Source: Burkholderiaceae bacterium
GTDB taxonomy: Bacteria > Pseudomonadota > Gammaproteobacteria > Burkholderiales > Burkholderiaceae_C
DNA: 64,000 bases
Assembly: GCA_023150375.1 (NCBI GenBank)
Contig: JAKLLA010000019.1
Coordinates: forward strand, 1-64,000
Direction of reading: 5' to 3'
Position 1 is the first letter of the stretch, and every line of letters starts with the position of its first letter. A program made the position numbers and the translations under genes. Positions 37,814-61,112 of this stretch are shown in pieces. Under the pieces are notes generated by a model. That model searched no databases. It was not told the origin of the DNA and worked only from the letters and a program-made list of their open reading frames with translations.

Positions 37814-38980
37814 ATGAAATCAGGAGTCCCGCTCGCGCCCCCTGCCTCGCCGCGCCCTGCCCTTCGGGTGAGATGGTCCGCAGGGGTGCATCGCCTCCCG
37901 GCGGCCCGTGCGCTCGGCGCCGCCGCACTGGCCGCGCTGGCCGCTGCGCTGGCCTGGCAGGGCGACGGCAGCGCCTGGGCGGCGGCAGCCTGCGCCGCCC
38001 TGGCCACGGGTTTGCTCACGCACCGCGGCGGCGCGGCTTCGGCCCCCCCCTCCGCGCCCAGAACCGGCACGGCCGCCGGCGGCCTGACCCGCGAGGTGGT
38101 GCCGATCTGGCAGCGCAACGTCGAGGCTGCCCGCGTCGAGGGCGAGCGCCAGGTCCACGAGATCATCGAGGCCTTCGCGACCATCCAGGCCAGGCTGGAG
38201 CAAGCGCTGAACGCCGGAGGCCAGCTCACCTCGGCCGCCGGGACCGGCGACGCGCTGATGCAGGCCTGCGAGGCCCAGGTGCAGGCCCTGCTCGAACCCA
38301 CCCGGCAGGCCTTCGCCCGCCAGGCCGCCATGCTGCAGGCCCTGCAGGACACCCGCGGCACCCTCGAGGAACTGCTGCGCGGCAGCACCCGCATCGGGCA
38401 GCTGGCCGGCAGCACCCACCTGGTGGGCCTGAACGCGGCCATCGAGGCCAGCCGCGCCGGCGAGCAGGGCCGCGGCTTCGGCTTCGTCGCCCAGGAGGTG
38501 CGTCAGCTGGCGCGCCAGAGCAGCGAGGCGGCCGGCACGATCGGCAGCGCCCTGCAGCAGTTGCTGGAACGGCTCGACCGGCTGGCCGCCCAGGCCGCGC
38601 AGCACAGCGCCGACGACGAGGAGATCGCCTGGCAGGCCGAGGAGCGCGCCCGGGCGGTGGTGCGCAGCATCCTCGACGACCTGCAGCAGCAGCGCGGCCA
38701 GTCGCAGGCGCTGCGTGCCGCACGCCTGGACGTGGGCGAGGCGCTCGACCGCCTGTACATGAACCTGCAGCACCAGGACCGCCAGAGCCAGATGCTGGTC
38801 AACGTCACCACCGACATGCAGCGCCTGGTCGAGTGGCTGGACCAGGACGGCCAGGCCGACCGCGCCGCCATCCAGGCCTGGCTCAAGCGCCTCGAGCACA
38901 GCTACTCGATGCGCGAGCAGCTCGACCACCACCACGGCACCGTGAGCGTGCAGGCCAGCCCCGCCGTGGAGTTCTTCTGA
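37814..38980 (+). CDS. Membrane receptor-like protein with CheZ-like motif (module 1)
   Basis: 388 residues. Two adjacent TM helices (~38-75) are joined by a very short loop, so there is no periplasmic sensor domain. The middle part has a receptor-type hairpin ([19 protein letters not shown] near 200-220; [18 protein letters not shown]). Near the C terminus [11 protein letters not shown] places D322 and Q326 as D-x-x-x-Q, the catalytic pattern of the CheY-P phosphatase CheZ, followed by a DMQRLVEWL helix. The protein ends in VEFF. A paralogue with the same layout is at 57534. Annotation pipelines would call it a methyl-accepting protein. A tethered CheY-P phosphatase is my inference. It lies 157 bp upstream of cheY. 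Confidence 0.75.
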
Positions 38981-39137: not shown

Positions 39138-39503
39138 ATGAGCAAGACCATCCTCGTGGTGGACGATTCCAGCAGCTTCCGCACCGTCGTGAAGCTGGCC
39201 CTGCAGAAGGCCGGCTACACCGTCATCGAGGCCGGTGACGGCAAGGACGCCAGTGCCAAGCTCAACGGTCAGAAGATCAACCTGATCGTCTGTGACGTCA
39301 ACATGCCCCACATGGACGGGCTGAGCTTCCTGCGCCACGTGAAGACGCAGGCGGCCTACAAGTTCACGCCGGTGATCATGCTGACCACCGAGAGCCAGGA
39401 AGCCAAGAAGGCCGAGGGCCGTGCCGCCGGCGCGCGCGCCTGGATCACCAAGCCCTTCCAGCCCTCGCAGCTGGTGGACGCGGTCAACCGCCTGTGCGTC
39501 TGA
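39138..39503 (+). CDS. cheY: CheY-type single-domain response regulator
   Basis: 121 residues. Acidic pocket in ILVVDDSSSFR, phospho-acceptor D53 in LIVCDVNMPHMDG, switch Thr in MLTTESQ, Lys in WITKPFQP. It should be phosphorylated by CheA and act on the flagellar motor or serve as a phosphate sink. The Shine-Dalgarno AGGAG lies 7 bp before the ATG. First gene of the cheY-STAS-cheA-receptor-receptor-cheW-cheR-cheD-cheB series. Confidence 0.93.
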   Translation: MSKTILVVDDSSSFRTVVKLALQKAGYTVIEAGDGKDASAKLNGQKINLIVCDVNMPHMDGLSFLRHVKTQAAYKFTPVIMLTTESQEAKKAEGRAAGARAWITKPFQPSQLVDAVNRLCV

Positions 39504-39507
39504 GGCC

Positions 39508-39843
39508 ATGGGCGCGACCCGCACGCTTCGCCTCGAGGGCGACCTGACCATCCAGTCCGCAGCCGACTGGCACCTGGCCCTGCTGAGCGCGGCCAACGAA
39601 CTCGGCGACGAACCGGAGGCGGGCCTGGCGCTGGACCTGGCGCAGGTCGTCGCGCTCGACAGTGCGGGCGTGCAGCTGCTGCTGTCGGCCCGCCGCAGCC
39701 TGGCCGCGCGCGGCCAGCAGCTGCGGCTGGTGGCCGACAACGCCGTCGTGGCCGACGTGCTGACCACCCTCGGCCTGCAGGACCTGCGCCCGAGCGCGGC
39801 CGACGCCGCCGAGGCTGCGCAACCCGAAGGAGTGCCGGCATGA
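39508..39843 (+). CDS. STAS-domain protein in the chemotaxis operon
   Basis: 111 residues. STAS fold with the hallmark LDLAQVVALDSAGVQLLLSARR; the Ser in DSAG is the position phosphorylated in anti-anti-sigma factors such as SpoIIAA. It starts 4 bp after cheY and its stop overlaps the cheA start (ATGA), so it is translationally coupled to both. No anti-sigma kinase is seen nearby. It may bind CheA or another partner (inference). Confidence 0.85.
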   Translation: MGATRTLRLEGDLTIQSAADWHLALLSAANELGDEPEAGLALDLAQVVALDSAGVQLLLSARRSLAARGQQLRLVADNAVVADVLTTLGLQDLRPSAADAAEAAQPEGVPA

Positions 39844-42098
39844 CCCATCGCCAAGACGACGACGAGATCCTGGCCGCCGCGCGGGCCGGCTTTCTCGAAG
39901 AGGCCGACGAGCTGCTGGCCCAGTTCGAGCAGTGCCTGCTGGGCCTCGAGAGCGACCCGCAGGATGCCGAGATCATCAACGCCGCCTTTCGCGCCGCCCA
40001 CACCATCAAGGGCACCGCCGGGCTGTTCGGCTGCGACGCGGTGGTGGGCTTCACCCACGAGGTGGAGACCCTGCTCGAAGCGGTGCGCGCCGGCCGGCTG
40101 GCGGTCGACGAACCGCTGATCGCCGTGCTGCTGCAAAGCCGCGACCAGATGGAGCGCCTGCTCGACGAGGTGCGCGCCGGGCGCGCGGACACGCCGGACG
40201 CCGGGCTGGAGGCGGTCAGCCGCGATCTGGGCGGCCAGCTGCGGGCCCTGCTCGGTCTGGCGCCCGCCCCGGCGGCCGCGGCCGATGCAACCGCGGTCGG
40301 CGACGGCATGGCGGCGGACCCCGGCAGGCGCGGGGCCTGGCAGATCTCGCTGCGCCTGCGCCTGGACGCCCTGCGCAACGGGCTGGACCCGCTGTCCTTC
40401 ATCCGCTACCTGGCCACGCTCGGCACGATCGAGCAGCTGGCCACGCTGGACGAGCGCGTGCCGGCGCTGGACGCCCTGGACGCCGAGGACTGCCACCTGG
40501 GCTTCGAGATCCGCTTCACGAGCGAGAGCGCCGACCAGGCCGCGATCGAGCAGGTGTTCGAATTCCTCGCCGACGACTGCGAGCTGACCGTGCTGGCGCC
40601 CGACGCGGCGCCGGCCCGGTGGGACACCCTGCTCACGCAGCGCTGCGGCGACGATGCGCAGGCCCGCACCCGTCTGCTCGCGCTCTGGACCGCGCAGGGC
40701 GTGCAGCTGCCGCTGCGCGATGCCGCCCCGGCCGTGGCCGCCGCCACGCCGGTCGACGATCGCACGCCGGCGGACACGCCCGCAGCCGAGCTCCCGGCGG
40801 CCGCTCCGCAGATCGAACGCCGCGCCGCCGAGGCCGGCGAGCGGCGCCGCAACGAGCCCGAGCGCCGTGCGGGCGCCAAGGACCGGCGCGGCGACGACGC
40901 CCGCTTCCTGCGCGTCTCGGCCGACAAGCTCGACCGGCTGATCGACCTGATCGGCGAGCTGGTCATCGCCGGCTCCGGCGCACAGCTGGTGGCCCAGCGC
41001 GAGGCCTCGCCGGCCTTCCTGGAGGCCGCCCAGCGCATCCACGACCTGGTGCAGGAGGCCCGCGACGGCGCGCTCAGCCTGCGCATGGTGCCCATCGGCG
41101 AGACCTTCGCGCGCTTCCAGCGCGTGGTGCGCGACGTCAGCAAGGGACTGGGCAAGGAGGTCGAGCTGGAGATCACCGGCGGCGACACCGAACTGGACAA
41201 GTCGATGGTCGAGGCCATCGCCGACCCGCTGATGCACCTGGTGCGCAACAGCCTGGACCACGGCATCGAGTCGGCCGAGGACCGCGCCGCCGCCGGCAAG
41301 TCGCCGCGCGGCCGCCTCGCACTGAACGCCTACCACGAGAGCGGGCTGATCGTCATCGAAGTCAGCGACGACGGCCGCGGCCTGCCGCGCGAGCGCATCC
41401 TGGCCAAGGCCATCGAGCGCGGCCTGGTCGAGGCCGACCAGCCGCTCAGCGACGCCGAGGTGAACCAGCTGATCTTCGCGCCGGGCTTCTCCACCGCCGA
41501 GAAGGTCACCGACCTGTCCGGCCGCGGCGTCGGCATGGATGTGGTCAAGCGCAACATCGACTCGCTGCGCGGCCAGATCCACATCGCCAGCACCCCGGGG
41601 GCCGGCACCACGATGCAGATCCGCCTGCCGCTGACGCTGGCGATCATCGACGGCTTCCTGACCACGGTGGGCGAGACCCACTACGTGGTGCCGCTCGAGG
41701 GCGTGGTCGAGTGCATCGAGACGCCGCCGGCCTGCAAGGCCGACGACGGCCGGCTGTCGGGCTGCTTCGACCTGCGCGGCGAGGTGCTGCCCTACGTCGA
41801 CCTGCGCCGCGCCTTCCGCCAGGACGGCGAGCGCCCGGCACGCCAGAGCATGCTGCTGGTGCGCACGCCCACCGGCAAGGTCGGCCTGCTGGTCGACCGC
41901 CTGCTGGGCGAGCACCAGACCGTCCTCAAGCCGCTGGGCCGCGTCTTCCAGCACCTGCCCGGCATCGCCGGCTCGACCGTGCTGGGCAGCGGCGAGGTGG
42001 CGCTGGTGCTGGACCTGCCGAGCCTGGTGGCGCATGCCAGCGTCAGCCACGCCGCGCTGCGCCGCAGCCAGGCCACAGCCCGGCGCGCCGCGGCCTGA
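39840..42098 (+). CDS. cheA: Chemotaxis histidine kinase CheA
   Basis: 752 residues. P1/HPt has phospho-acceptor H54 in AAHTIKGTAGLFG. A middle domain (~155-265, LRNGLDPLSFIRYLATLG) takes the place of a classical P2. P3 dimerisation starts at FLRVSADKLDRLIDLIGELV. The P4 kinase has N-box HLVRNSLDHGIE and G-boxes DDGRGLP, GRGVGMDVVK. The P5 CheW-like end is LPYVDLRRAFR and GLLVDRLLGE. There is no fused receiver. It phosphorylates CheY and CheB under receptor control. The start overlaps the STAS gene stop and has an AGGAG Shine-Dalgarno. Confidence 0.96.
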   Translation: MTHRQDDDEILAAARAGFLEEADELLAQFEQCLLGLESDPQDAEIINAAFRAAHTIKGTAGLFGCDAVVGFTHEVETLLEAVRAGRLAVDEPLIAVLLQSRDQMERLLDEVRAGRADTPDAGLEAVSRDLGGQLRALLGLAPAPAAAADATAVGDGMAADPGRRGAWQISLRLRLDALRNGLDPLSFIRYLATLGTIEQLATLDERVPALDALDAEDCHLGFEIRFTSESADQAAIEQVFEFLADDCELTVLAPDAAPARWDTLLTQRCGDDAQARTRLLALWTAQGVQLPLRDAAPAVAAATPVDDRTPADTPAAELPAAAPQIERRAAEAGERRRNEPERRAGAKDRRGDDARFLRVSADKLDRLIDLIGELVIAGSGAQLVAQREASPAFLEAAQRIHDLVQEARDGALSLRMVPIGETFARFQRVVRDVSKGLGKEVELEITGGDTELDKSMVEAIADPLMHLVRNSLDHGIESAEDRAAAGKSPRGRLALNAYHESGLIVIEVSDDGRGLPRERILAKAIERGLVEADQPLSDAEVNQLIFAPGFSTAEKVTDLSGRGVGMDVVKRNIDSLRGQIHIASTPGAGTTMQIRLPLTLAIIDGFLTTVGETHYVVPLEGVVECIETPPACKADDGRLSGCFDLRGEVLPYVDLRRAFRQDGERPARQSMLLVRTPTGKVGLLVDRLLGEHQTVLKPLGRVFQHLPGIAGSTVLGSGEVALVLDLPSLVAHASVSHAALRRSQATARRAAA

Positions 42099-42152: not shown

Positions 42153-44705
42153 GTGCGCAGCAATCTCCCCGTCACCCAGAAGGAATACCCGCTGTCCGCG
42201 GGCATGTGCATCGTCTCGCGGACCGACCCGAAGGGCCGCATCACCTGGGTCAACCAGGACTTCATCACCGCCGCCGGCTTCACCGAGCGCGAGCTGATCG
42301 GCCAGCCGCACAACCTGGTGCGCCACCCGGACATGCCGGCCGAAGCCTTCGCCGACCTCTGGCGTACCCTGCAGGCCGGCAAGCCCTGGTCCGGCATGGT
42401 GAAGAACCGCCGCAAGGACGGCGACCACTACTGGGTGCTGGCCAACGTGACCCCGCTGGAGGAGAACGACCAGCGGGTGGGCTACCTGTCGGTGCGCACC
42501 GTGCCCACGCGGGCGCAGATCGACGCGGCCGAGGAGGCCTACCGCCGCCTACGCGAAGGACAGGCACCCGGCTGGACCGTGCATGAAGGCGAGTTCGTCC
42601 AGGCCGCCGGGATACGGCGCGCCGAGCGCCTCGCCGGCCTGCTGGGCCGCACCTCGGTCGGGCGCCAGCTGGGCGTGGCGGTCGGGCTGGGTGGCGCGGC
42701 CGCGCTCGGCGGCATCGGCCTGGCGGCCGCGCAGGCCTGGTGGCTGGCACCGCTGCCGCTGGCCGCGGCGGTGGCCTCGGCCTGGGCACTGCAGCGCGTG
42801 TCGCGCCGCCTGAACTCCAGCCTGCGCGACATCCGCGAGCACCTGGACCGCTATGCCCAGGGCCGCTTCGACGGCGTGGTGGGCCGCCTGGTCGGCCAGG
42901 ACGAACCGGTGCAGGCGCTGCACGCGATCCGTCGCCTGCAGACCCGGCTGGGCTTCGAGCTGGCCGACTCGAAGCGCCGCGCAGTGGAGTCCGAGCGCAT
43001 CCGCATGGCGCTGGACGTGGCCACCGCCCGCATGCTGGTGACCGACGCGGACGGCTTCGTGGTCTACGTGAACACTTCCCTGCGCGACTGGCTCGACGAG
43101 CATCAGGAGGCGCTGCGTGCCGACTGGCCGAAGCTCGATGGCGCGCGGCTGGCCGGCGCCCGGCTGGACGCGATGATGGTCGACCGGCAGGGCCAGCCGC
43201 TGCTGCCCGCACTGGACCGCCGCCAGCGCCTGACCCGCACGGCCGGCGGGCGCACCGTGGACCTGACCATCACGCCGGTGCGCCAGGGTGAAGGCCCGGT
43301 GACCGGGGCGGTGATCGAATGGGTCGACCAGACCGAGGCGCTGGCCGCGACGGCCCGCACCGAGGCCGCCGCCGCCGAGGATCGCCGCCAGCGCGATGCC
43401 GCCCTGCGCGTGAACCGGGCGCTGGACGCCACGCCGATGCCCATCCGCATCGCCGACGCCAACGGCACGATCGTCTACGTCAACGAGGCCCTGACGGAGG
43501 TGGTGCGACGCGATGCGGCCGCCTTCCGTGCCGAGATCCCTGGCTTCGATCCGGAGCGGGTGCTGGGCGGCTCGATCGGCATCTTCTACCGCGACCCGGA
43601 AGCCGCCATCGCCCGGCTGCGCGGCCTGCAGAGCCGGGTCACCACGCGCATGGTGCTGGGCGGGCGCACCTACGACGTCACCACCACCCCGATCGTCGGG
43701 GCCGACGGCAGCCGCCTGGGCTCGATCGGCCAGTGGCAGGACCGCACCGAGCAGCTCGCTGCCGAGGCCGAACTGGCCAAGCTGGCCGAGGCGGCCACGC
43801 GCGGCAACTTCACCGCCCGCATGGACGTGCAGCGCCACGAGGGCTTCATCCGCCAGGTCGGCGAGATGCTCAACGGCCTGATCGCGACGATGAACGGCAC
43901 CCTGACCGAAGTGCGCGGCGCGGCCGAGCGGCTGCGCATGGCCGCCGGCGAGACCACCAGCACGGCCCACTCGCTGGCCCAGCAGGCCTCCGAGCAGGCC
44001 GCCACGGTCGAGCAGACCACCGCCGCGCTGCAGGAGATGGCCGACTCGGTGCAGCGCAACGCCGCCAACGCCTCCGAGACCGGGCGCATGGCCCGCGGCG
44101 CCGCCACCGAGGCCCAGGAAGGCGGCGCGGCGGTGGCGCAGACGGTGGAGGCCATGAAGTCCATCGCCACGCGCATCTCCATCATCGACGACATCGCCTA
44201 CCAGACCAACCTGCTGGCCCTGAACGCGGCCATCGAGGCCGCCCGTGCCGGCGAGCACGGCAAGGGCTTCGCCGTCGTGGCCGCCGAGGTGCGCAAGCTC
44301 GCCGAGCGCAGCCAGATCGCCGCCCAGGAGATCGGCCAGCTCGCCGACAGCTCGGTGGGCCTGGCCGAGAAGGCCGGCCGCCTGCTGGGCGACATGGTGC
44401 CCGCGATCCGCAAGACCAGCGACCTGATCGGCGACATCGCGCAGGCCTCGGACAGCCAGAGCGACAGCGTCGGCCAGATCACCGACGCGATGGACCAGGT
44501 CAACCAGGCCACGCAGCGCAACGCCGCGGCCTCCGAAGAGCTGTCGGCCACCGCCGAGCAGCTCAACGGCGAGGCCGCCCAGCTGCAGCAGCTGGTGGCG
44601 CGCTTCCAGCTCGGCGAGCGCCGTGCCGAAGCGGCACCTCGCCCGGCAGCGCGCAGTGCCGGCACGTCCGCCCGCCGCAGCCCGGCCCCCGCGCTGGTCG
44701 ACTGA
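42153..44705 (+). CDS. Aer-like PAS methyl-accepting chemotaxis protein
   Basis: 850 residues from a GTG start ([14 protein letters not shown] is the conserved Aer-type beginning). An N-terminal PAS at ~10-120 ([36 protein letters not shown]) is of the Aer/redox type. Hydrophobic segment ~170-215 inserts in the membrane with almost no periplasmic part. Two more PAS units follow at ~283-396 and ~416-533, then the signalling domain with tip [20 protein letters not shown] near 680-713. It probably monitors redox or energy state from inside the cell. It lies inside the che operon between cheA and a second receptor. Confidence 0.9.
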
Positions 44706-44766
44706 ACGCCCTGCCGACCCCACACCTCCGTCCACGCCCCCTCACGACTTCCTCGCGCCACCGACC

Positions 44767-47700
44767 ATGACACAACGCCCCACTTCCTCTTCCGCGGGCC
44801 CACGCCCGCTGCCCTGGTTCTTCCGCGCCGCAGCCGCTCCGCTGGGTCGGCTGACCCTGGCCGGCAAGTCGATCCTGGTGGGCACCGCGCTGATGATCCC
44901 GCTGGCCTGGCTGATCGGCAACACCGGTCTGCGCCAGCAGGCCGAGCTGGCCTACACCCAGGGCGAGCTGACCGGACATCACGCGCTGCACGAAGTGCTC
45001 GACTTGTCGCTGCAACTGTCGGACGCGCGTGGCCAGGCCATCGTGGCGCTGAGCGCGCAGCAGCCGCAGCCGCGCCCGGACGCGCTGCGCCAGCAGGTCG
45101 ACGCGGTGCAGGCCCTGGTCCAGGCCCATCCGCAATGGGGCCTGCAGCCGGCCTGGGCCAGCACCCGCGAGGCCCTGCAACCCCTGCTCGAACCGGTCGC
45201 CGCGGGCACGCCGGTGGCACGCCTGACGGCCCAGCATGCCCTGGCACAGCAGCGCATCCGCGCACTGGTGACGCTGGCTGCCGAGCAGAGCGGCGTCATC
45301 TTCGACCCGGAACCGGTGACCTACCTGCAGATGGACCTGTTCACCGCAGTGCTGCCGCAACAGATGGAGCTGCTGGCCTTGCTGCGTGACGGGACGGTCG
45401 AGGCCCCCGGCGCGGCCCAGGAAGGCACCGAGGCGGCCCGACGCGCCCGCATCGAGGTGCTGAGCCGCCAGCTGGCCGAGCAGGCCCATGTGGTGAAGAT
45501 GCGCATGGATGGTCTGACCCGGCACGGCGGCAGCCTGCCCCCGGCGTGGAACACAGCGCAGGCAACGATCGAAGGCTTCGTGCGGTCGCTGCAGGCCGCC
45601 GCCGAGCAGCAAGGCAGCGGCAATCCGGCCGCCCTGCTGGCCGACAGCCGCAAGGCCATCGAGGCGCTCGACCAGGTGCACGGCGAACTCGGCAGTGCCT
45701 TCGAGGCCGGCCTGAACGCGCGCATTCACCGCATCGAACAGGAACGGCTCTGGATGGCCGCGGCCCTGCTCGGCGGGCTGGCACTGGCCACCTACCTGTT
45801 CCTGGCGGTGCTCGCCTCGGTGGCCCGTGCGGCCGGCGCACTCCGGCAGGGCGCACAGCGCATGGCCGCCGGCGAGATCCACCAGCCCATCGAGGTGGCG
45901 GGCCGCGACGAGTTCGCCCGCATCGCTGCCTCCTTCGAGCAGAGCCGCCTGAGCCTGGTGCGCCTGATCCAGGACATGCAGAGCATGGCCGCCGAGCACG
46001 AGCGCGGCGACATCGACGTGGTGATCGACGCCGATCGCTTCAGCGGCGAGTACCGCACCATGGCCGCCGGCGTCAACGAGATGGTGGGCGCACACATCGC
46101 GGTCAAGAAGAAGGCCATCGCGGTGGTGCAGGCCTTCGGTGCCGGGGACTTCGAACAGCCCCTGGAGACCTTCCCGGGCAAGAAACGCTTCGTCAACGAC
46201 GCCATCGAGCAGGTGCGCGCAATCCTGCGCAGCAACGCCGCGGCGGCCGACGAGAACCTGCGCATCCGCATGGCGCTGGACGACGTGCCCAGCGCGGTGC
46301 TGATCGCCGACAACGCCGGCGTGATCCGCTACGCCAACAAGTCGGTGATCGCCCTGCTCACCCGCATCGCCGACGACCTGCGCACCGTGGTGCCGAACTT
46401 CGACGTCAAGACCATCATCGGCTCGAACTTCGACATCTTCCACAAGAATCCGGCGCACCAGCGCCGCCTGGTCGAGGGCCTGAGCGGCCCGCACCGCGCG
46501 CAATGGAAGTTCGGCGGCCGCGCCATCCAGCTCACCGCCAGCCCGATCTTCGATCACGCCGGCGAGCGTGCCGGTGCCGTGCTGGAGTGGGTCGACCGCA
46601 CCGGAGAGGTGCGCGCCGAAGAGGAAGTGACCTCGATCGTCGAGGGCGCCTCGCGCGGCGACTTCAGCCGCCGGATCTCGCTGGCCAGCGATGCCCCGGC
46701 CTTCATGCGCACGCTGGGCAACGGCGTGAACCAGCTGATGGGCACCACCGAGCACAACCTCACCCAGGTCAGCGAGATGCTCTCGCGGGTGGCCGCGGGC
46801 GACCTCACCGCCACCCTGGACGGTGAACATGCCGGCATCTTCGGCCAGCTGCAGGGCGACCTCAACCGCATGGTCGGCCAGCTGGTGGACACCATCTCAC
46901 AGGTCACGGCCGCCGCCGAGGCCCTCACCGCCGCAGCCGGCCAGGTCTCGTCGACCTCCCAGAGCCTGTCGCAGGGTGCCTCCGAGCAGGCCGCCAGCGT
47001 CGAGCAGACTTCCGCCTCGCTGCAGGAGATGGCCGCATCCGTGCGCCAGAACGCCGAGAACGCCAACGTCACCGACGGCATTGCCACCAAGGCGGCCCGC
47101 GAGGCCCAGGACGGCGGCGACGCCGTCGCCCAGACCGTCGAGGCCATGAAGTCGATCGCCACGCGCATCTCCATCATCGACGACATCGCCTACCAGACCA
47201 ATCTGCTGGCGCTGAACGCGGCCATCGAGGCTGCCCGCGCCGGCGACCACGGCAAGGGCTTCGCGGTGGTGGCCGCCGAGGTGCGCAAGCTCGCCGAGCG
47301 CAGCCAGGTCGCCGCCCAGGAGATCGGCCAGCTCGCCGGCTCGTCGGTCAAGCTGGCCGAGAAGGCCGGCAGCCTGCTCGGCGAGATGGTCCCCTCGATC
47401 CAGAAGACCAGCGAGCTGGTGCAGGAGATCGCGGCCGCCTCGGGCGAGCAGTCCGACTCTGTGGGCCAGATCAACGCCGCGATGGAGCATGTCAACGGCT
47501 CGACGCAGCAGAACGCCTCCGCGGCCGAGCAGCTCTCGGCCACCGCCGAGCAGCTCTCCGCGCAGGCCGCCCAGCTGCAGGGGCTGATGGCCTTCTTCCA
47601 GCTGCGCGACCACGAGGCGCCCCGGGCAGCGGCTCTGCCCGCCGCGCCGGCACGGCCGGCCCCGGGCGCGGGTCGCCCCGCCTTCGCTGCCAGCGGGCAG

Positions 47701-47829
47701 GGCAACCAGGCGGCCCGCCAGCTGCAGTCCCTGCTGCAGCGGCGCGGCGTCGCCCCGGCCGCACGCGCGGGCAGCCCTGGCATGGCGGACGCTCAGGACA
47801 TCGACGAAGCCTCCTTCGGGCGCTTCTGA
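44767..47829 (+). CDS. Methyl-accepting chemotaxis protein with HAMP and PAS domains
   Basis: 1020 residues from ATG 44767. TM1 is ~30-55, a long periplasmic helical domain ~60-325, TM2 ~328-355. HAMP and a second HAMP-like unit ([21 protein letters not shown]) follow to ~490, then PAS ~496-615 and another HAMP-like linker. The signalling region is ~705-945 with tip [20 protein letters not shown] near 808-842. Its signalling segment is nearly identical in DNA to that of the preceding receptor. The Ala/Pro-rich C-terminal tail ends in EASFGRF, which might tether adaptation enzymes (inference). Confidence 0.9.
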
Positions 47830-47853
47830 TCCCTCCCCCGCGAAGCTCCCGTC

Positions 47854-48417
47854 ATGACCCTCCCCACCGCCCCCCTCTCCGCCTTCGGCAGCGCGGCGGC
47901 CGGCAACGCCGCCGACCGGATGGCCGGCAGCCAGCTGCTGCGCCTGGCCGTCGGGCCGCGCATGTATGCGGTGCCCATCGAGCAGGTGCGCGAGATCCTC
48001 AAGGTCAGCCAGCTCACCGTGCTGCCGCTGATGCCCGCCTTCGTGCGCGGGGTGATGAACCTGCGCGGCGCCGTGGTGCCGGTGATCGACCTGGGCGCAC
48101 GCCTGGGCGGCCCGACCACTGCGCTGGCGCGGCGCACCTGCGTGGTCATCGTCGAGCAGCGCAGCGGCGACGGCAGCGCCCAGACCCTGGGTGTGCTGGT
48201 CGATGCGGTGCACGAGGTGGTCGACACCGGCGAGGCCGATCTGGAGCCCGTGCCCACGCTGGGTACCGAGGTCGACACCGCCTTCCTCGCCGCGATGGCC
48301 CGGTTGCGCGGCGAGATCGTGCCTGTGCTGGCGCTCGATCGGGTGCTCGACGAAGAGGCGCTGGCCCAGGCCATTGCCACGCACGCGCAGCCGGCCGACG
48401 GCGCGCGCCTGCACTGA
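47854..48417 (+). CDS. cheW: Chemotaxis coupling protein CheW
   Basis: 187 residues. CheW fold: LLRLAVGPRMYAVPIEQVREIL, LPLMPAFVRGVMNLRGAVVPVIDL, VLVDAVHEVVD. It links receptors to the CheA P5 domain. It lies 24 bp after the receptor gene and 13 bp before cheR, in operon. A second cheW is at 62533. Confidence 0.94.
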   Translation: MTLPTAPLSAFGSAAAGNAADRMAGSQLLRLAVGPRMYAVPIEQVREILKVSQLTVLPLMPAFVRGVMNLRGAVVPVIDLGARLGGPTTALARRTCVVIVEQRSGDGSAQTLGVLVDAVHEVVDTGEADLEPVPTLGTEVDTAFLAAMARLRGEIVPVLALDRVLDEEALAQAIATHAQPADGARLH

Positions 48418-48430
48418 AGGAGACGCTGCC

Positions 48431-49228
48431 ATGGGCATGTCCGATGCGTCGTTCGACGCGGTGGTGACGATGTTCGAGAAGGTCTCGGGCATCCGCCTCG
48501 CGCCGGTCAAGAAGCCGCTGGTGGAAGGCCGGCTGCAGCGCCTGGCCGTCGAGGCGGGCCAGCCCAGCCTGGACCGCTACGTCGAGCAGCTCATGCGCGG
48601 CGAATCGCCCGACGAGCTGACCAAGGTCATCGACAAGCTGACCACCAACGAGACCTACTTCTTCCGCGAGCCGCAGCATTTCGAGTACCTGGCGCGCTGG
48701 CTGAAGGAGCATCCGCCGCGCGGCCCCTTCCGCGTCTGGAGCGCCGCCAGCTCCTCCGGCGAGGAGGCCTACAGCATCGCCATGCTGCTGGCCGACCAGC
48801 TCGGCCAGCGCCCCTGGGAGGTGGTCGGCACCGACCTGTCGACCTCGGTGGTGGAGACCGCCCGGCGCGCGCTCTACCCGATGGAGCGGGCCCGCCACAC
48901 CCCGCAGGCCTACCTGAAGCGCTTCTGCCTGCGCGGGCAGGGTGAGTACAGCGGCCAGCTGCTCATCCAGCGCGCGCTGCGCGAGCGCGTGAGCTTTCGC
49001 TGCGCCAACCTGATGCAGCCCCTTCCTTCGGATCTCGGGCAGTTCGACGTGATCTTCCTGCGCAACGTGCTGATCTACTTCGACGCCCCGGCCAAGGCCC
49101 GAATCGTCAGCCGTGTCATCGGACACCTCCACGATCATGGGCATCTCTTCACCGGCCACGCCGAGTCGCTCGGCAACCTCGACCTGCGCCTGCGGGCCAT
49201 CCAGCCGGCCATCTACACGCACGGCTGA
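48431..49228 (+). CDS. cheR: Chemotaxis methyltransferase CheR
   Basis: 265 residues. The N-terminal helical domain (TMFEKVSGIRLAPVKKPLVEGRL) precedes the SAM-dependent domain: TTNETYFFREPQHFE, SAM-binding VWSAASSSGEEAYSIAM, GTDLSTSVVETARRALY, FDVIFLRNVLIYFD, HGHLFTGHAESL. It methylates receptor glutamates. The Shine-Dalgarno AGGAGA precedes the ATG; an ATG two codons downstream is an alternative. Confidence 0.95.
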   Translation: MGMSDASFDAVVTMFEKVSGIRLAPVKKPLVEGRLQRLAVEAGQPSLDRYVEQLMRGESPDELTKVIDKLTTNETYFFREPQHFEYLARWLKEHPPRGPFRVWSAASSSGEEAYSIAMLLADQLGQRPWEVVGTDLSTSVVETARRALYPMERARHTPQAYLKRFCLRGQGEYSGQLLIQRALRERVSFRCANLMQPLPSDLGQFDVIFLRNVLIYFDAPAKARIVSRVIGHLHDHGHLFTGHAESLGNLDLRLRAIQPAIYTHG

Positions 49229-49232
49229 CGCG

Positions 49233-49814
49233 ATGAGCGGTCTGCACCACAAGCCGGCGCATCCGCCGCCCCGCCCGGGCGGGGGCGCGCTGCCCGGGCG
49301 TGCGGCCGCCGCGCCGTCCGGCCCCGTCGGCCTGGTGCGCCACGCCCGCCCCGGCCACGAGCTGCTGCTGATGCCCGGGCAGCTCTACTTCGGCCGCGAG
49401 CCCGCCTCCATCCGCACCCTGCTGGGCTCCTGCGTGGCGCTGACGCTGTGGCATCCGCAGCGCCATCTCGGCGGCATGTGCCACTACCTGCTGCCCGAGC
49501 GCCACCGCAGCCACGGCCTGCCGGCCGACGGCCGCTACGGCAGCGAGGCCATCGCCCTGCTGCTGGACCTGCTGGCTCGCGCCGGCACCCGCGCCACCGA
49601 GTACGAGGTGCACCTGTACGGCGGCGCCGACACCCTGCCCGACCATGTGCAGCACAAGACCCAGGTCGGGGTGCGCAACATCGAACTGGGCTGGACGCTG
49701 ATCGACCAGCACGGCTTCCAGCTGGTCGGCGTGGACGTGGGCGACAACGTGCCGCGCACCGTGCGGCTGGACATGCACAGCGGCGAAGTGACGATGCGCC
49801 GCTCCGAGCGCTGA
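49233..49814 (+). CDS. cheD: Chemoreceptor glutamine deamidase CheD
   Basis: 193 residues. The active-site Cys is C67 in TLLGSCVALTLW and His is H84 in GGMCHYLLPER, as in the CheD family. Later motifs are VHLYGGADTL, VGVRNIELGW and GDNVPRTVRLDMHSGEV. It deamidates receptor glutamines to glutamates and, in some bacteria, binds CheC. No cheC is seen here. The N-terminal ~35 residues are Pro/Gly-rich. It starts 4 bp after cheR. Confidence 0.94.
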   Translation: MSGLHHKPAHPPPRPGGGALPGRAAAAPSGPVGLVRHARPGHELLLMPGQLYFGREPASIRTLLGSCVALTLWHPQRHLGGMCHYLLPERHRSHGLPADGRYGSEAIALLLDLLARAGTRATEYEVHLYGGADTLPDHVQHKTQVGVRNIELGWTLIDQHGFQLVGVDVGDNVPRTVRLDMHSGEVTMRRSER

Positions 49815-49853
49815 GCCGCCGCGGCGCGCGCACGCAACCCGAAGGGAACCGAC

Positions 49854-50993
49854 ATGAAATCGATCAAGGTGATGATCGTCGACGACTCGGCGGTGGTGCG
49901 AAAGCACCTCACCGGCCTGCTCAATGCGGCGGGCATCGAGGTGATCGCCGCCGCATCCGACCCGCTGTTCGCCTGGCAGAAGATGCAGGCCCAGTGGCCC
50001 GACGTGGTGGTGCTGGACGTGGAGATGCCGCGCATGGACGGCATCACCTTCCTGCGCCAGATCATGGCCGAGCGCCCCACCCCGGTGGTGATGTGCTCGA
50101 CCCTGACCGAGGCCGGCTGCGAGACCACGATGCAGGCGCTGGCCGCCGGCGCGGTGAGCTTCGTCACCAAGCCGCGCATCGGCCTGCGCGACTTCCTGGA
50201 GGACCGCAGCAACGGGCTGGTGGCCGCGGTGCGTGCGGCCGCGGGCGCCAACCTGCGCGCCATCGCCGCCGGCGCGGCGGCGCGGGCGCAGCCGGCGGCA
50301 TCGGCCACGGTGACGCGGTCGGCCGGCGCGACGGCCGGAGCCGGCGCCGCGACGCGCCGGCCGCCGGGCCACGTCGCCCCGGCCCGGCCGGCGGGGGCGA
50401 TGGCCGAGACCACCGACCGCGTCATCGCGGTGGGCATCTCCACCGGCGGCGTGCAGTCCATCGAAGTGGTGCTGCGCGCACTGCCGCGCACGATTCCCGG
50501 CATGGTGATCGTGCAGCACATGCCGGAGAAGTTCACCGCCTCCTTCGCGGCCCGGTTGAACAACCTCTGCGAGCTGGAGGTCCTGGAGGCCCGGGACGGC
50601 GACCGCGTCATCGACGGGCGCGTGCTGATCGCCCCGGGCGGTCGGCACATGCGGCTCAAGCGCAACGGCGCCCAGTACGTCGCCGAGGTCTTCGACGGCC
50701 CGCTGGTGAACCACCACCGGCCGTCGGTGGACGTGCTGTTCAAGTCGGTGGCGCACTGCGCCGGGCGCAACGCCATCGGCCTGATCATGACCGGCATGGG
50801 CGACGACGGCGCGCGCGGCCTGCGCGACATGCACGACGCGGGCGCGCTCACCGCAGCGCAGGACGAGGCCAGCTCGGTGGTCTTCGGCATGCCCAAGGAG
50901 GCCATCAAGCTCGGTGCGACCGACCACGTGCTCGGCCTGGGCGAGATCGCCGGCTGGCTGCAACGGGTGTGCAGCCAGCGCGCCACGGCCTGA
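49854..50993 (+). CDS. cheB: Chemotaxis methylesterase CheB
   Basis: 379 residues. The receiver domain has D55 in [14 protein letters not shown] long Ala/Pro-rich linker (~135-185) leads to the methylesterase domain with the catalytic Ser S196 in GISTGGVQS, His in [10 protein letters not shown] and Asp in [11 protein letters not shown]. It removes methyl groups from receptors when phosphorylated by CheA. The Shine-Dalgarno GAAGGGA precedes the ATG. Last recognisable che gene of the operon. Confidence 0.95.
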
Positions 50994-55240: not shown

Positions 55241-57295
55241 TCAGGCCAGCTTGAAGCGCGAGGACTGCTCGCTGACCTGCAGGCTCTGGCGGCGCAGCTC
55301 CTGCGCCGCATCGGTGAGCTGGCCGGCCAGGCGGGCGTTGGCATCGCTGAACTGGTGCAGCTCGTCGAGCGAGCCGGCCATCTGGCGGGCGTTGGCCTGG
55401 CCCTGGCAGGTCAGCTCGGTCAGGCGCTGCAGCACCTGGTTGACGCCCTGCACCTCGGCTTCCGTGCCGGCCACCGCCTCGACGCTGCGCTGGGTGATCG
55501 CGCGGCCCTGCTCGATCTCGGCGATCGAAGCCGCAACGATGGCGCCGATCTGCTGCGCGGCGTTGGCCGCCCGCATCGACAGCTGGCGCACCTCGTGGGC
55601 CACCACCGCGAAGCCCTTGCCGGCCTCGCCGGCACGCGCCGCCTCCACCGAGGCGTTGAGCGACAGCAGGTGGGTCTGGAAGGCGATGCCGTCGATCATG
55701 CCGACGATCTTGCCGATCTCGCGGCTGCGCTGCTGCAGCCCGCCGATGCGCTCGGCCAGCGTGCCCATGACGCGGCGGCTGCGCCCGGACTCGGTGCGCA
55801 TCGCGCGGGCCCGCTCGACCGCCTGCTGCACGCACTGCTCGTAGCCTTCGAGGTGCCCGACCATCGCACCGATGCCCTCGCGTACCGCCGCCACCGAGGC
55901 CAGCGCGTTGCCCGAGCCGCGCGAGAGGTCGGCGCTGGCCGAGGCGATCTCGGTGGAGGCATGTGCCACCGAGGCCACGCCGCGCCGCACCACCGAGAAC
56001 AGCCCGCCCAGGTTGCCCAGCGATTCGGTGATCAGCGCCAGGGTGCGCGCCGCCTCGTCGCGGCCGAGCGGACGGGGCCGGCGGCTGAGGTCGCCCTCGG
56101 CGACGTACTGCACCTCGCGCTGGATCTGCCGCATGCCACCGCGCAGCACATGGAAGAAGGCGTAGAGCAGGTAGTTGGCCAGCGCCAGCGCCAGGCCGAG
56201 GCCGACCACGAAGAGCGCGAAGGCATCGCGCTGCTGCTGCCAGCGCTGCGCCAGCTCGGCACGCAGCTGCGCGGCCAGATCGGCCTGCTGCCGCCGCAGG
56301 GCCTGGCGCTGCCGATCGATCGTGCTGCGGTGCGGCAGCAGCGCCTCCGGGCCGACGCCGTCGAGCACCTGCGCATGCAGCGCATCGACGGCCGCACGGG
56401 TCTGCTGCAGGGTCTGCAGCAGGGCGGCGGACTGGGCCGCGGCCTGGCTGCCGGGCTCGGCTCCGGCACCGAGGGCCAGGGCGCTGCCGCGTGCCCGCTC
56501 GATCTGGGCCTGCAGCGGGTGGTAGGCCGCCGCGTAGGGCTCGAAGGCGCGGCGACTGGCATCGCCCTGCACGGCCAGGGCATGCGCACGCGCCCAGGCC
56601 GTGCCGATGCCCTGCTCGACGCGCAGCAGCAGGTGCACCGCCAGCCTGGCACGATGCGAGGCGCCCGGGTCCCGCAGGGCGTCCAGCGGGGTGTCGAGCA
56701 GCAGGGCCTCGTCGAAGTCCAGCAGCTGCTCGATGAAGGCGGTGCGCAGCCGCACCTCGGCAAGCCGGGGGCCCACCGGCGGCGCGACGACCTGCGGAAA
56801 GCGCTCGACCAGCGCCCGGTAACGCGCCTGCACCGCCTCGCCCGGCTGGGCGGCCCGGTGGGCCTGCTCCAGGGCCCGCCAGCCCGCCAGCAGCGGCTCG
56901 CCGGCGGCGGCCGAGGGCGCCGAGGCATCGAAGAGCTGCACGCGCTGGCGGTGTACCGCATCGAGCAGGCCGTCGGTGGCCTGCGCGACGGCCAGCATGT
57001 CGCGCGCACGCCCCAGTTCGCCCAGGTCCTGCCAGGCCCGCCCGAACAGCAGCATCGCCAGCAGCGCCGTGGGCAGCACGAAGGCCAGCGCGACCAGCGT
57101 GGCCTTGGCGCGGAAATCCAGCCTCCGGTGCAGCCGGACCCCGGGCGCCCAGACACCGTGATGGCGGAAGAACTCGCGCCAGCCTTCGCGCAGCTGCCGC
57201 AGCCGCTGCAGCAGCCCGTCGGCCGCCCCGGATGCGGGGGACCCGCGGTGGGGTCGACCGAGCGCGCCGGCTCGCCAGCGCAGGGAAAGACTCAT
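55241..57295 (-). CDS. Methyl-accepting chemotaxis protein (module 2)
   Basis: 684 residues from [10 protein letters not shown] at 57295 (upstream codons in the same frame run into the divergent gene and are not coding). The N-terminal cytoplasmic segment [15 protein letters not shown] resembles [15 protein letters not shown] of the receptor at 35582. TM1 is ~60-82, the periplasmic helical domain ~85-358, TM2 ~360-385, then HAMP. The signalling tip [21 protein letters not shown] lies near 535-565 (cited in part: [19 protein letters not shown]). It is paralogous in size, layout and divergent orientation to module 1. Confidence 0.9.
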
Positions 57296-57533
57296 GGAGG
57301 CACCTTTGCATGCAACCGCGTCGCAGCGAGCGGCAGCCGGCCCGCCGACCTGTGCGGCAACCTTCGCATTAGAGGCGGCGCGCACCGGCGCGACGGCCCG
57401 AATTGGCCCGACGCAGCGCAGCATTTCGGACGACTGCGCCCCTGCGGCCACGGCGACGATGCCCGACGTCCCCCGAAAGGTGGCCGGCAGCGCGTGCGCG
57501 CCGCCGGTCCGACCCATGCCGGACCGACCCACG

Positions 57534-58691
57534 ATGACCGCCTCCTCCGCCGACCTGCCGCCCCGCTCCGACGCCCCGCCGAGGCCGCCCGCACCGCCGC
57601 GCAGCCCGACCCGCTCGGCCGTCGGCCTGGCGGCCGGCCTCGCGGCCCTGACCGGCGCGGCCGTCCAGCTCGGCGGCGGCTGGGGGGCCTGCCTGGCCGG
57701 CGCGCTGCTCAGCGGCTGGCTGCTGGCGCGCCTGCTGCAGCCCCCGGCCGATGCCACGCCGGCCGCGGCCGATGCGGCCGCGCCGGTGCTGGTCGAGCAG
57801 GTGCTGCCGGTCTGGCTGCGCCAGATCGAGGCCGCCCGCCAGCACGCCGAGCAGAGCACCGGCGAGATCCTGCAGGCCTTCACCTCGATCGACCAGCGGC
57901 TCGAGGAGGCCGTGCGACTGGCCGAGTCCTCCTCGTCCGACCTGAGCGGGGCCACCGTGGACGCGCTGATCGACGACAACGACGCGGTGCTGGCCAGCCT
58001 GCTCGAACCGGTGCGCCTGGCCATCGGCCAGCGTGACGAGGCCCTGGCCGAGGTCGAGCAGGTCGGCGCGGCGATCGACGAGATGCGCCAGGGCGCCGCC
58101 CGGGTGCGCCAGCTGGCGCGCCGCATCAACATGGTGGCCATCAACGCGGCGGTGGAATCGGCCCGCTCGGGCTCGCGCGCCGGCAGCTTCGCGGTGCTGG
58201 CCGAAGAGGTGCGCGGCCTGGCGCAGCAGTCCGCCGCCGATGCCGGGCGCCTGCTGAGCCAGTCGGCCCGCCTGGAGGAGCGCCTGAGCGGACTGCGCCT
58301 GCTGGCTGCCACCCGCGACAGCAGCGACGAGGAGCTGCGCGCCCAGGCCGACGCGAGTGCGCGCCGCGCCATCGGCGGCCTGCTCGACAGCGTCGGCCAG
58401 ATCGGCCGCTCCAGCCGGGGGCTGCGCGAGGCCGGCGGCCAGGTGCGCGCCGACGTGGAGCGGGTGCTGATGGGCTTCCAGGCCCAGGACCGCTTCAACC
58501 AGATGCTCGGCAGCATCACCGAGGACATGCAGCGCCTGCAGGACTGGCTGGCGCAGCGCGGCGACCTCAGCAGCAACCAGGCCGCCGTCTGGCTGGCCCG
58601 GCTGGAGTCGGCCTACACCATGGAAGCGCAGCGCTCGCAGCACCACGGCCAGCAGGTCATCGAGCGAGACAACCAGGTCGAGTTCTTCTGA
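57534..58691 (+). CDS. Membrane receptor-like protein with CheZ-like motif (module 2)
   Basis: 385 residues from [11 protein letters not shown] at 57534. In-frame ATGs at 57516 and 57459 exist, but this start gives almost the same length as the paralogue (388). Two TM helices (~27-65) have no periplasmic domain. A receptor-like hairpin, [20 protein letters not shown], lies near 195-220 and is followed by [26 protein letters not shown] gives D319 and Q323 as the CheZ-type D-x-x-x-Q, then a DMQRLQDWL helix and the C-terminal VEFF. A membrane-tethered CheY-P phosphatase is inferred. It is 24 bp upstream of another receptor gene. Confidence 0.75.
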
Positions 58692-58715: not shown

Positions 58716-61112
58716 ATGACAAGTCCCCCGATTGCCGTTGCCGGCCTGCCCGGCTGGATCCTGACGCTGCTGCAGCCCGGCCTGCGGCTGATGCAGCGCT
58801 TCACGATGGGCCACAAGATCATCGCCTGCTGCGCGCTGGCCCTGTTGCCGCTGGGCGCGCTGAGCGGCTGGACGGCCTGGCAGCAGTGGCAGCGCCTGCA
58901 GGAAACCCGCCTCGAACTGCGTGGCAGCGCCCAGCTGCGCCTGCTCGCCGAGGTGGGCCGGCTGGCGCGTGAGCTGCGCCTGACGAGCCAGCTGGCCGAG
59001 GCCGGCCTGCCCGCCGGGCCGGGCCAGGCCCAGGCCCAGCGCGAGCGCCTGGCCGCGGCGATCGAGGCGGCCACCCGGCAGCTGGACCGCGACGCCGATG
59101 CCCTGCTGCAGACGCGCTGGCAGGCCTGGGCGGCGGGCTGGCGCGGTGCGGCGACGGGCAGCCCGTCCACCCCGGCGCCCTGGAGCGGCGAGGCCTCCTC
59201 GCTGCAGGCCCTGGAAGCCCTGCTGCTGCTGGTGGGCGAGCGCTCGCGGCTGCTGCTCGACCCCGAGGGCGGCCCCTATTTTCTGATGGATCTGGCGGTG
59301 CAGCACCTGCCGCCCTGGATCGAATCGATCGCCCAGGCCGGCGGGCTGGGGGCCGTCCTGCTGGCCGCCCCGGACGGCGCGGTGGCCGCACCGGCCACGC
59401 TGCAGGCCCGGCGCGAACTGCTGGCCTGGCACAGCGAGGCGATCGCCCGTCGCACCCAGGCACTGCAGCGCTTCGGCGAGGCCGAGCCCCCCGGCTGGCA
59501 GGCGGCGGCCCAGCTGGCCCGCCGCCTGGGCGAGCGCCTGCCGACGGACTCCGGCGAGTCGTCGGGTGCCGAGCAGGCCCGTGCCCACGCCGCCTTCGCG
59601 CAGCAGGTGCTGCATGCGGCCGGGCAGATGGAGAGCTCCGTGCTGGGGCGTCTCGAGACGCTGCTGCAGCAGCGCGCCGAACAGCTCACGCGCTGGCTGG
59701 CCGCGCAGCTGCTGCTCGGCCTGGGCGTGGGCGCGGCCATGCTCTACCTGGGGCTGTGCCTGTACCTGGCCTTCGGCAGCGGCCTGCGCCAGCTGCGCCG
59801 GGCGGTGCAGGCGGTGGCTGCGGGCGACCTGACCTACGTCGGGCGCATCGACACCGACCGCGAGCTCGACGCGATCCAGCAGGCGCTGAGCGGCATGTCA
59901 CGCCAGCTGTCGGGCACCGTGGCGGGCATCCGCAGCACCGCGGCGCGCCTGGCGATGTCGGGCGAACGCCTGTCGGGCGACACCACCGCCCTGGCCCAGC
60001 GCACCGAGTCGCAGGCCGGCGCGCTGGCGCAGACCAGCCGGGCCGTGCGCCAGGTGAGCGACAGCGTGGCCCACACGGCGCGTCACGCCCACGCCGTGTC
60101 CGAGCGGGCCGGCCAGGCCTGCGCGGTGAGCGACGAGGGCCGCCGCTCGATGCGCGAGGCCGTGATGACCATGCAGGAGATCGAGGCCTCGGCGCGCCGC
60201 ACCGGCGAGATCGTCGACCTGATCGAGGACATCGCCTTCCAGACCAACATGCTGGCGCTGAACGCCTCGGTGGAGGCGGCCAAGGCCGGCGAGAGCGGAC
60301 GCGGCTTCTCGGTGGTGGCCGAGGAAGTGCGCAAGCTCGCCCAGCGCAGCAGCCAGGCGGCCCAGGAAGTGGGCCAGCTGCTGGAGACCTCGGCGCGACA
60401 GATCGGCGAGGGGGTGAACCGCATCGGCAGCGTCGATCTGACACTGGGCGACATCGCCCAGGGCATCCGCGAGGTCACGGGCACGCTGCAGCAGATCGCC
60501 GATGCGGCCAGCAGCCAGAGCACCGCCCTGGACGAACTGACCCGCACCGTGGCCAGCCTGGACGAGATCACGCGCGAGAACGCGGCGATGGTGCGCGAAT
60601 CGCACCACGCCACCGAAGCGCTGATGGAGCACGCCCGCAGCCTGACGCAGGGCGTGCGCTCGATCCGGCTCTGGCAGGGCAGCTCCGACGAGGCGCGCGA
60701 TCTGGTCGACCGCGCCGCCGCGCTGATTGCATCGCAGGGCCTGGAGGCCAGCCTGCAGGCCCTGCACGACCCGCAGGGCGAGTTCCGCGACCGCGACCTG
60801 TACCTCTTCGGCCTGAGCCGCGACGGCCATTACCGCATCTTCGGTCTGGACCGCAGCCGCGTGGGCCAGCCGGTTCCGCCCATCGCCACGCGCAACGGCG
60901 ACCTGCTCGATGCCGCCGCCTGGCAGGTGGCGCAGGCCGGTGGCGGCTGGGTGGACTACCAGATCTCGCACCCCCAGACCCTGGAGCTGGAGGACAAGGC
61001 CAGCTACGTGCGCCAGGTGGACGAAAACCTGGTGATCGGCTGCGGCGTCTATCGGCGCCAGGGCGTGCTGGACGGCAGCACAGCGCGCCGCACGGAACCC
61101 GCCTTGCGCTGA
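58716..61112 (+). CDS. Methyl-accepting chemotaxis protein with C-terminal Cache domain
   Basis: 798 residues. TM1 ~34-52, periplasmic helical domain ~55-325, TM2 ~327-353, HAMP ~355-405. The signalling domain is ~428-641 with tip [21 protein letters not shown] near 505-538 (cited in part: [18 protein letters not shown]). After it, at ~658-782, comes a single-Cache-like sensor: [50 protein letters not shown]. Cache domains are normally periplasmic. Here the order places it in the cytoplasm behind the signalling domain. It is probably cotranscribed with the CheZ-motif gene. Confidence 0.9.

Follow-up and report, generated by a model that had tools for sequence, protein, structure and literature searches.

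A receptor-type protein with a CheZ-like C-terminal module, encoded directly upstream of cheY in a Burkholderiaceae chemotaxis operon

In the CheY-P phosphatase CheZ, a glutamine helps to position the attacking water while an aspartate contacts CheY. A DxxxQ motif is also found in HisKA_3 sensor kinases (NarX/DesK), where it sits on a dimeric four-helix bundle and dephosphorylates the response regulator. According to the available parts of the respective papers, an AXXFQ motif adjoins DXXXQ in CheZ (PMC7750401), and the DXXXQ protein CheT of Sinorhizobium meliloti, which acts on one of two CheYs, has no evident homologue among the known chemotaxis proteins (PMC12654446). Further papers describe VC1394 of Vibrio cholerae cluster I/F9 as a little-known receptor of the 24H class that has a transmembrane (TM) region (PMC7534058) and place cheZ of stage 1 and stage 2 F7 systems only in the accompanying F6 cluster (PMC7184735). 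How the signal is terminated in second pathways that lack their own cheZ is a gap that a receptor-phosphatase could help to fill. Among the titles and abstract openings covered by our literature search, whose scope excluded most subscription papers, we found no chemoreceptor with a CheZ-type phosphatase, and the accessible portions of PMC6391922 and PMC9855816 held nothing on the protein described below. We found this protein in a 64,000-nucleotide stretch of DNA from a Burkholderiaceae bacterium (contig JAKLLA010000019.1), which we refer to as the window; the operon genes and the paralogue located in it below lie on its plus strand.

Anatomy of the protein and its operon

The open reading frame at 37814..38980 encodes a receptor-type, CheZ-like protein of 388 amino acids. 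An AlphaFold2 monomer model (27 sequences, mean pLDDT 72.6, pTM 0.46) places helices at residues 25-48, 53-73, 87-135, 145-292, 298-343, 350-363, and 367-374, followed by a disordered stretch, 377-388. The first two helices make up a membrane hairpin (37886..38032), in agreement with the first-pass annotation, which had seen a pair of TM helices and no periplasmic domain; by hydropathy, residues 28-48 are the sole stretch above the threshold used. The third is an N-terminal cytoplasmic helix (38072..38218). The receptor-type hairpin of the same annotation is also borne out, as residues 192-315 (38387..38758; tip [17 protein letters not shown]) match Pfam MCPsignal at 3.7e-18 (66.4 bits against a cut-off of 34.6). 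Apart from this match, Pfam returned a single chance row at 0.22 (E up to 1), with no HAMP, ligand-binding, or kinase domain in the window protein. HAMP and ligand-binding domains are absent from some methyl-accepting chemotaxis proteins (MCPs).

The motif Q319-x-x-D322-x-x-x-Q326 (38768..38791; local sequence LQHQDRQSQ) lies on the helix 298-343, with D322 encoded at 38777-38779 and Q326 at 38789-38791. The chain ends in a disordered tail (residues 377-388, 38942..38977; pLDDT below 50) whose last four residues, 385-388, are VEFF, so that both the Asp/Gln pair and the terminus are present in the translation as originally noted.

The 15 best PDB matches of the window protein were chemoreceptor chains or models. 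Whole-chain superpositions were poor (rmsd 27-54 Å for 13 of these 15, 8.8 Å for 9a72), and the E. coli receptor tip 6s1k superposed at 1.4 Å over 97 columns (E 6.1e-3); CheZ was absent among the 50 PDB matches listed. These structural matches, the MCPsignal score above its cut-off, and the annotation of two plasmid relatives as methyl-accepting chemotaxis proteins are what one would expect of a short receptor of the ordinary kind, with QxxDxxxQ as a noncatalytic packing element of the membrane-proximal bundle. The same can be said of the motif helix in the model of a typical relative, L122 (monomer, mean pLDDT 80.8, pTM 0.45), which is predicted to run on from the receptor helix without a break. 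The tail of L122 is disordered as well. Given their low pTM values, however, neither model fixes the packing of the bundle.

Downstream of the gene follow the presumed substrate CheY (39138..39503; Pfam Response_reg; D53, N55, E85), a STAS-domain protein (39508..39843), the CheA kinase (39840..42098), and the remainder of the operon with two MCPs, CheW, CheR, CheD, and CheB (42153..50993). The MCP at 42153 was assigned from its sequence and a search match, and the others in this stretch by Pfam. A receptor-type paralogue ([12 protein letters not shown]) sharing 37% identity across residues 26-388 is encoded at 57294..58691; its receptor tip is divergent ([17 protein letters not shown]), no CheY starts within 450 nucleotides (nt) downstream, and its true start could lie further in. 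It is followed by an MCP gene (58716-61109) whose product has its signalling domain (463-619) ahead of a single-Cache match (682-779), which is an uncommon arrangement.

Conservation of the motif, the tail, and the cheY neighbor

We searched 150 genomes of the order, 116 of which had some match at 1e-3, many of them over the general receptor tip only. The best matches, up to a limit of 30 loci, together with the paralogue gave 31 homologues, the window copy included, that were recruited by whole-protein similarity. QxxDxxxQ is kept near the C-terminal end in 30 of these 31; the exception, L049, is a full-length relative that lacks both the motif and the terminal Phe and is a natural candidate for a noncatalytic form. 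A terminal [IVL]x[FLIM]F is found in every one of the 28 homologues that carry the motif and are complete at the C terminus; L047 and L048 were dropped from the tail counts as they run off contig ends. In an alignment of 29 homologues, which leaves out L049 and the truncated L048, Q319, Q321, D322, R323, and Q326 are invariant, the other invariant residues sit in the tip region (198-236), and F387 and F388 are conserved at 90% or more. A class-level search with a whole-protein profile gave the same picture, with motif and tail in 31 of 31 loci (30 from the profile search, the window among them, plus L078). The first-pass annotation had held that its reading would fall if the Asp/Gln pair varied freely among homologues; we looked for such variation and did not find it. 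A chance motif is ruled out by the conservation in 30 of 31 homologues and the invariance of D322 and Q326.

In the larger collection, the [IVL]x[FLIM]F ending is present in all 86 distinct untruncated members with the motif and absent from all 54 proteins without it, the latter being ordinary MCPs with few exceptions. These 86 members and the alignments A3 and A4 were picked by the motif, so that its invariance there holds by construction; the motif figures free of such selection are 30/31 and 31/31. Left out of the counts were L047, L048, L092 (a second record of the window), four duplicate gene entries, and L175, a pattern match that resembles an ordinary MCP and has no tail. The members come from betaproteobacteria, Pseudomonas, Shewanella, Aeromonas, Vibrio, Stenotrophomonas, and one actinobacterium, Dactylosporangium roseum. 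In the same phylum as the window, the loci L207-L214 hold relatives in frames of 331-457 amino acids, seven of them with the variant tip LNARIVxARAGEAGxAF and one, L214, without a recognizable tip. In Vibrio mimicus (L227), the family C terminus is found in a 146-amino-acid frame overlapping an MCP-matching frame, a split that is perhaps due to a frameshift or sequencing error.

On a receptor, the final [IVL]x[FL]F closes a flexible tail, and some members lie after cheB, as might be expected if it were a CheR/CheB tether and the protein merely aided adaptation. Some receptors carry such tethers as NWETF/GWEEF pentapeptides, as stated in the available part of PMC7698151. Trp was not seen in the last four residues of the family, though, and the same tail ends tip-less proteins beside cheY (see below), which makes this explanation highly improbable.

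For 67 of the 86 distinct members, a same-strand CheY begins no more than 450 nt downstream, whereas none of the 53 ordinary MCP genes fetched together with them has such a neighbor; the position directly upstream of cheY, pointed out for the window at the outset, thus holds there and for most of the family. Among the 19 members without CheY directly downstream, cheB lies upstream in seven, cheY lies upstream in one, and CheY lies further downstream in two. The usual gene order, which the window shares, is the receptor-type gene, cheY, STAS, cheA, MCP, cheW, cheR, cheD, and cheB, with STAS often missed by the neighborhood search. The complete genome of D. roseum has the same order (family gene L123, cheY, STAS, cheA), perhaps acquired by transfer, as well as a second relative, L231. 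The partner CheYs keep N55 in 65 of 67 cases and E85 likewise in 65 of 67, residues that correspond to N59 and E89 of E. coli CheY, both important for CheY-P turnover.

The conserved tail and cheY link would equally suit a docking or sink protein, whose motif and tail bind CheY-P without dephosphorylating it. Unusual residues beside the motif in both receptor-type copies of the window genome point in the same direction. A further point against a phosphatase role is H320 of the window copy, a position at which 80 of the 86 members carry Phe. Near-strict conservation of exactly the two catalytic residues of CheZ is hard to reconcile with mere binding, and we regard such a role as improbable.

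Resemblance to CheZ and short forms without a receptor tip

The first-pass annotation had named Pfam CheZ and CheC/CheX for comparison. At E up to 1, neither the whole window protein nor its final 109 amino acids (residues 280-388) gave a CheZ row, and the whole protein gave none for the CheC/CheX/FliY phosphatases. Relatives that match Pfam CheZ do so only under its curated cut-off. Among 25 C-terminal segments, CheZ matches four (best 2.2e-4) and is the sole Pfam family to match more than one, while two NCBIfam CheZ models match three and two; since an unrelated Pfam family reached 2.8e-5 with one of the 25, such E-values on helical segments are weak. The likeness to CheZ becomes apparent in the reverse direction, with a profile of the C-terminal module, which scores 11 of 25 true CheZ proteins below 0.01. 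Of the controls (250 shuffled CheZ sequences and the 54 motif-less proteins), only L049, itself a family relative, fell below this value. A genome search with the profile found the true CheZ L233 at 1.2e-4.

The CheZ signal hinges on the motif, a dependence that favors packing in an ordinary receptor: with the motif masked, 0 of 25 true CheZ proteins scored below 0.01, against 11 of 25 intact. Retaining the motif inside shuffled CheZ yielded 0 of 125 below 0.01, and we therefore rejected the motif alone as proof of CheZ homology; the resemblance may stem from common descent or from convergence. Some profile-profile comparisons barely beat an ordinary-MCP control (7.9e-3 versus 9.8e-3). When complete family proteins were scanned with CheZ models and filters off, noisy coiled-coil matches arose in the controls as much as in the family, and these scans were set aside. 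We also considered an MCP hairpin inserted into the loop of a CheZ-like hairpin, which is a doubtful arrangement: the N-terminal helix compared with CheZ at 0.15-0.39 and weakly resembles helix 1 of the short proteins described next (E 0.0048, 23 columns).

The C-terminal profile also finds short proteins, several of them encoded directly upstream of cheY and cheA. A profile built from eight of these matches in 99 of 200 genomes of the order, receptor types included. Scanning the eight against Pfam revealed no convincing family, one of them touching CheZ at 0.012. Among the best 30 loci of the short-protein search, 21 are without a receptor tip by pattern, and 14 of these 21 lie directly before cheY; QFxDxxxQ and an LF end are present in all 30. 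The tip-less frames mostly span 155-223 amino acids; four are longer, including a 623-amino-acid frame that holds a 153-amino-acid protein of the window genome itself. This CheZ-like protein, L240 (contig C13, ~167309-167767, minus strand), carries QFQDMASQ and ends in GSIELF, has no receptor tip, lies directly before cheY and cheA, and was missed by the genome-wide Pfam CheZ search. Three genomes of the same family, G049, G093, and G133, carry the short form, and scoring 12 candidates turned up no full-length receptor type in them. By profile comparison, the receptor-type and short-protein C-terminal segments are clearly related (98.2%, 4.4e-14).

The occurrence of the same module in tip-less proteins beside cheY is the strongest argument that it works alone and is not an element of receptor packing. 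Together with the absence of the tail from the motif-less proteins and the cheY link, it renders the ordinary-receptor explanation unlikely.

The window genome does contain true CheZ, with two genes over the Pfam cut-off on contigs C3 and C28. The earlier remark that cheZ is missing is thus correct for the operon of the window but not for the genome. CheZ is likewise found in 46 of the 47 searched genomes with the receptor type, which were taken from the order-level and class-level searches, the exception being G052, which is 84% complete. We therefore rejected the idea that the receptor type replaces a missing cheZ; it is an extra protein, which probably serves a second chemosensory pathway.

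Proposed function and comparison with known systems

Judging from sequence, we consider it likely that the window protein is a receptor-type CheY-P phosphatase. What speaks for the membrane-tethered CheY-P phosphatase of the first-pass annotation is the conserved Asp/Gln pair, the tail, the cheY link, and the CheZ-like profile. Against it weigh the lack of a Pfam CheZ match for the window protein, the 19 members that have no CheY directly downstream, the departure of the tail from the CheZ ends seen, and the presence of CheZ in nearly all searched genomes. The membrane hairpin would anchor the protein, and the MCP tip would seat it beside CheA and CheW in the manner of a receptor, making it probably a member of the receptor array of its own operon. 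D322 and Q326 would then act as a CheZ-type pair on the returning, membrane-proximal helix, while the flexible tail ending in VEFF is predicted to bind, and so capture, CheY. In this way, the CheY-P of the operon (CheY at 39138) could be cleared close to its kinase, and we infer that the state of the receptor would control the phosphatase. If true, opposing activities would be united in one array, local CheY-P would be shaped there, and a receptor-controlled shut-off would be possible.

More tentatively, and with somewhat more doubt than conviction, we propose that many proteobacterial receptor arrays have a built-in CheY-P phosphatase, that kinase and phosphatase sit in a single core complex with receptor conformation setting both, and that the module is part of a CheZ-like superfamily with free-standing members of ~150-220 amino acids and may account for obscure short receptors such as VC1394. 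QFxDxxxQ combined with a terminal [IVL]x[FL]F offers a sequence handle for further such proteins.

Among known systems, the HisKA_3 kinases differ in that their motif follows the phospho-His, whereas the window protein has no kinase domain. CheT, which we could compare only by its description in the available part of the source, is not described there as a receptor. With CheZ (PF04344), the module shares [F]xDxxxQ, which profile comparison places in register, the same hydrophobic phase around the motif (shifts of 7 fit nearly as well), and the cheY neighbor; many CheZ tails also end in Phe. Unlike CheZ, the window protein has a membrane hairpin and an MCP hairpin, and the family stays under the Pfam cut-off. 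Its tail is a short [IVL]x[FL]F compared with CheZ ends such as VDDLLSSLGF or IDALF, and the receptor type has a conserved Gln three residues before the Asp and often an Arg after it. MCPs without a periplasmic domain (McpA-like receptors and VC1394) resemble the window protein in their receptor tip, TM region, and place in a che cluster, with the terminal-Phe tail setting the family apart from ordinary MCPs. The Vibrio metoecus member lies after cheB in a che cluster of the cluster I/F9 type, and it and the V. mimicus member are probably the counterpart of VC1394.
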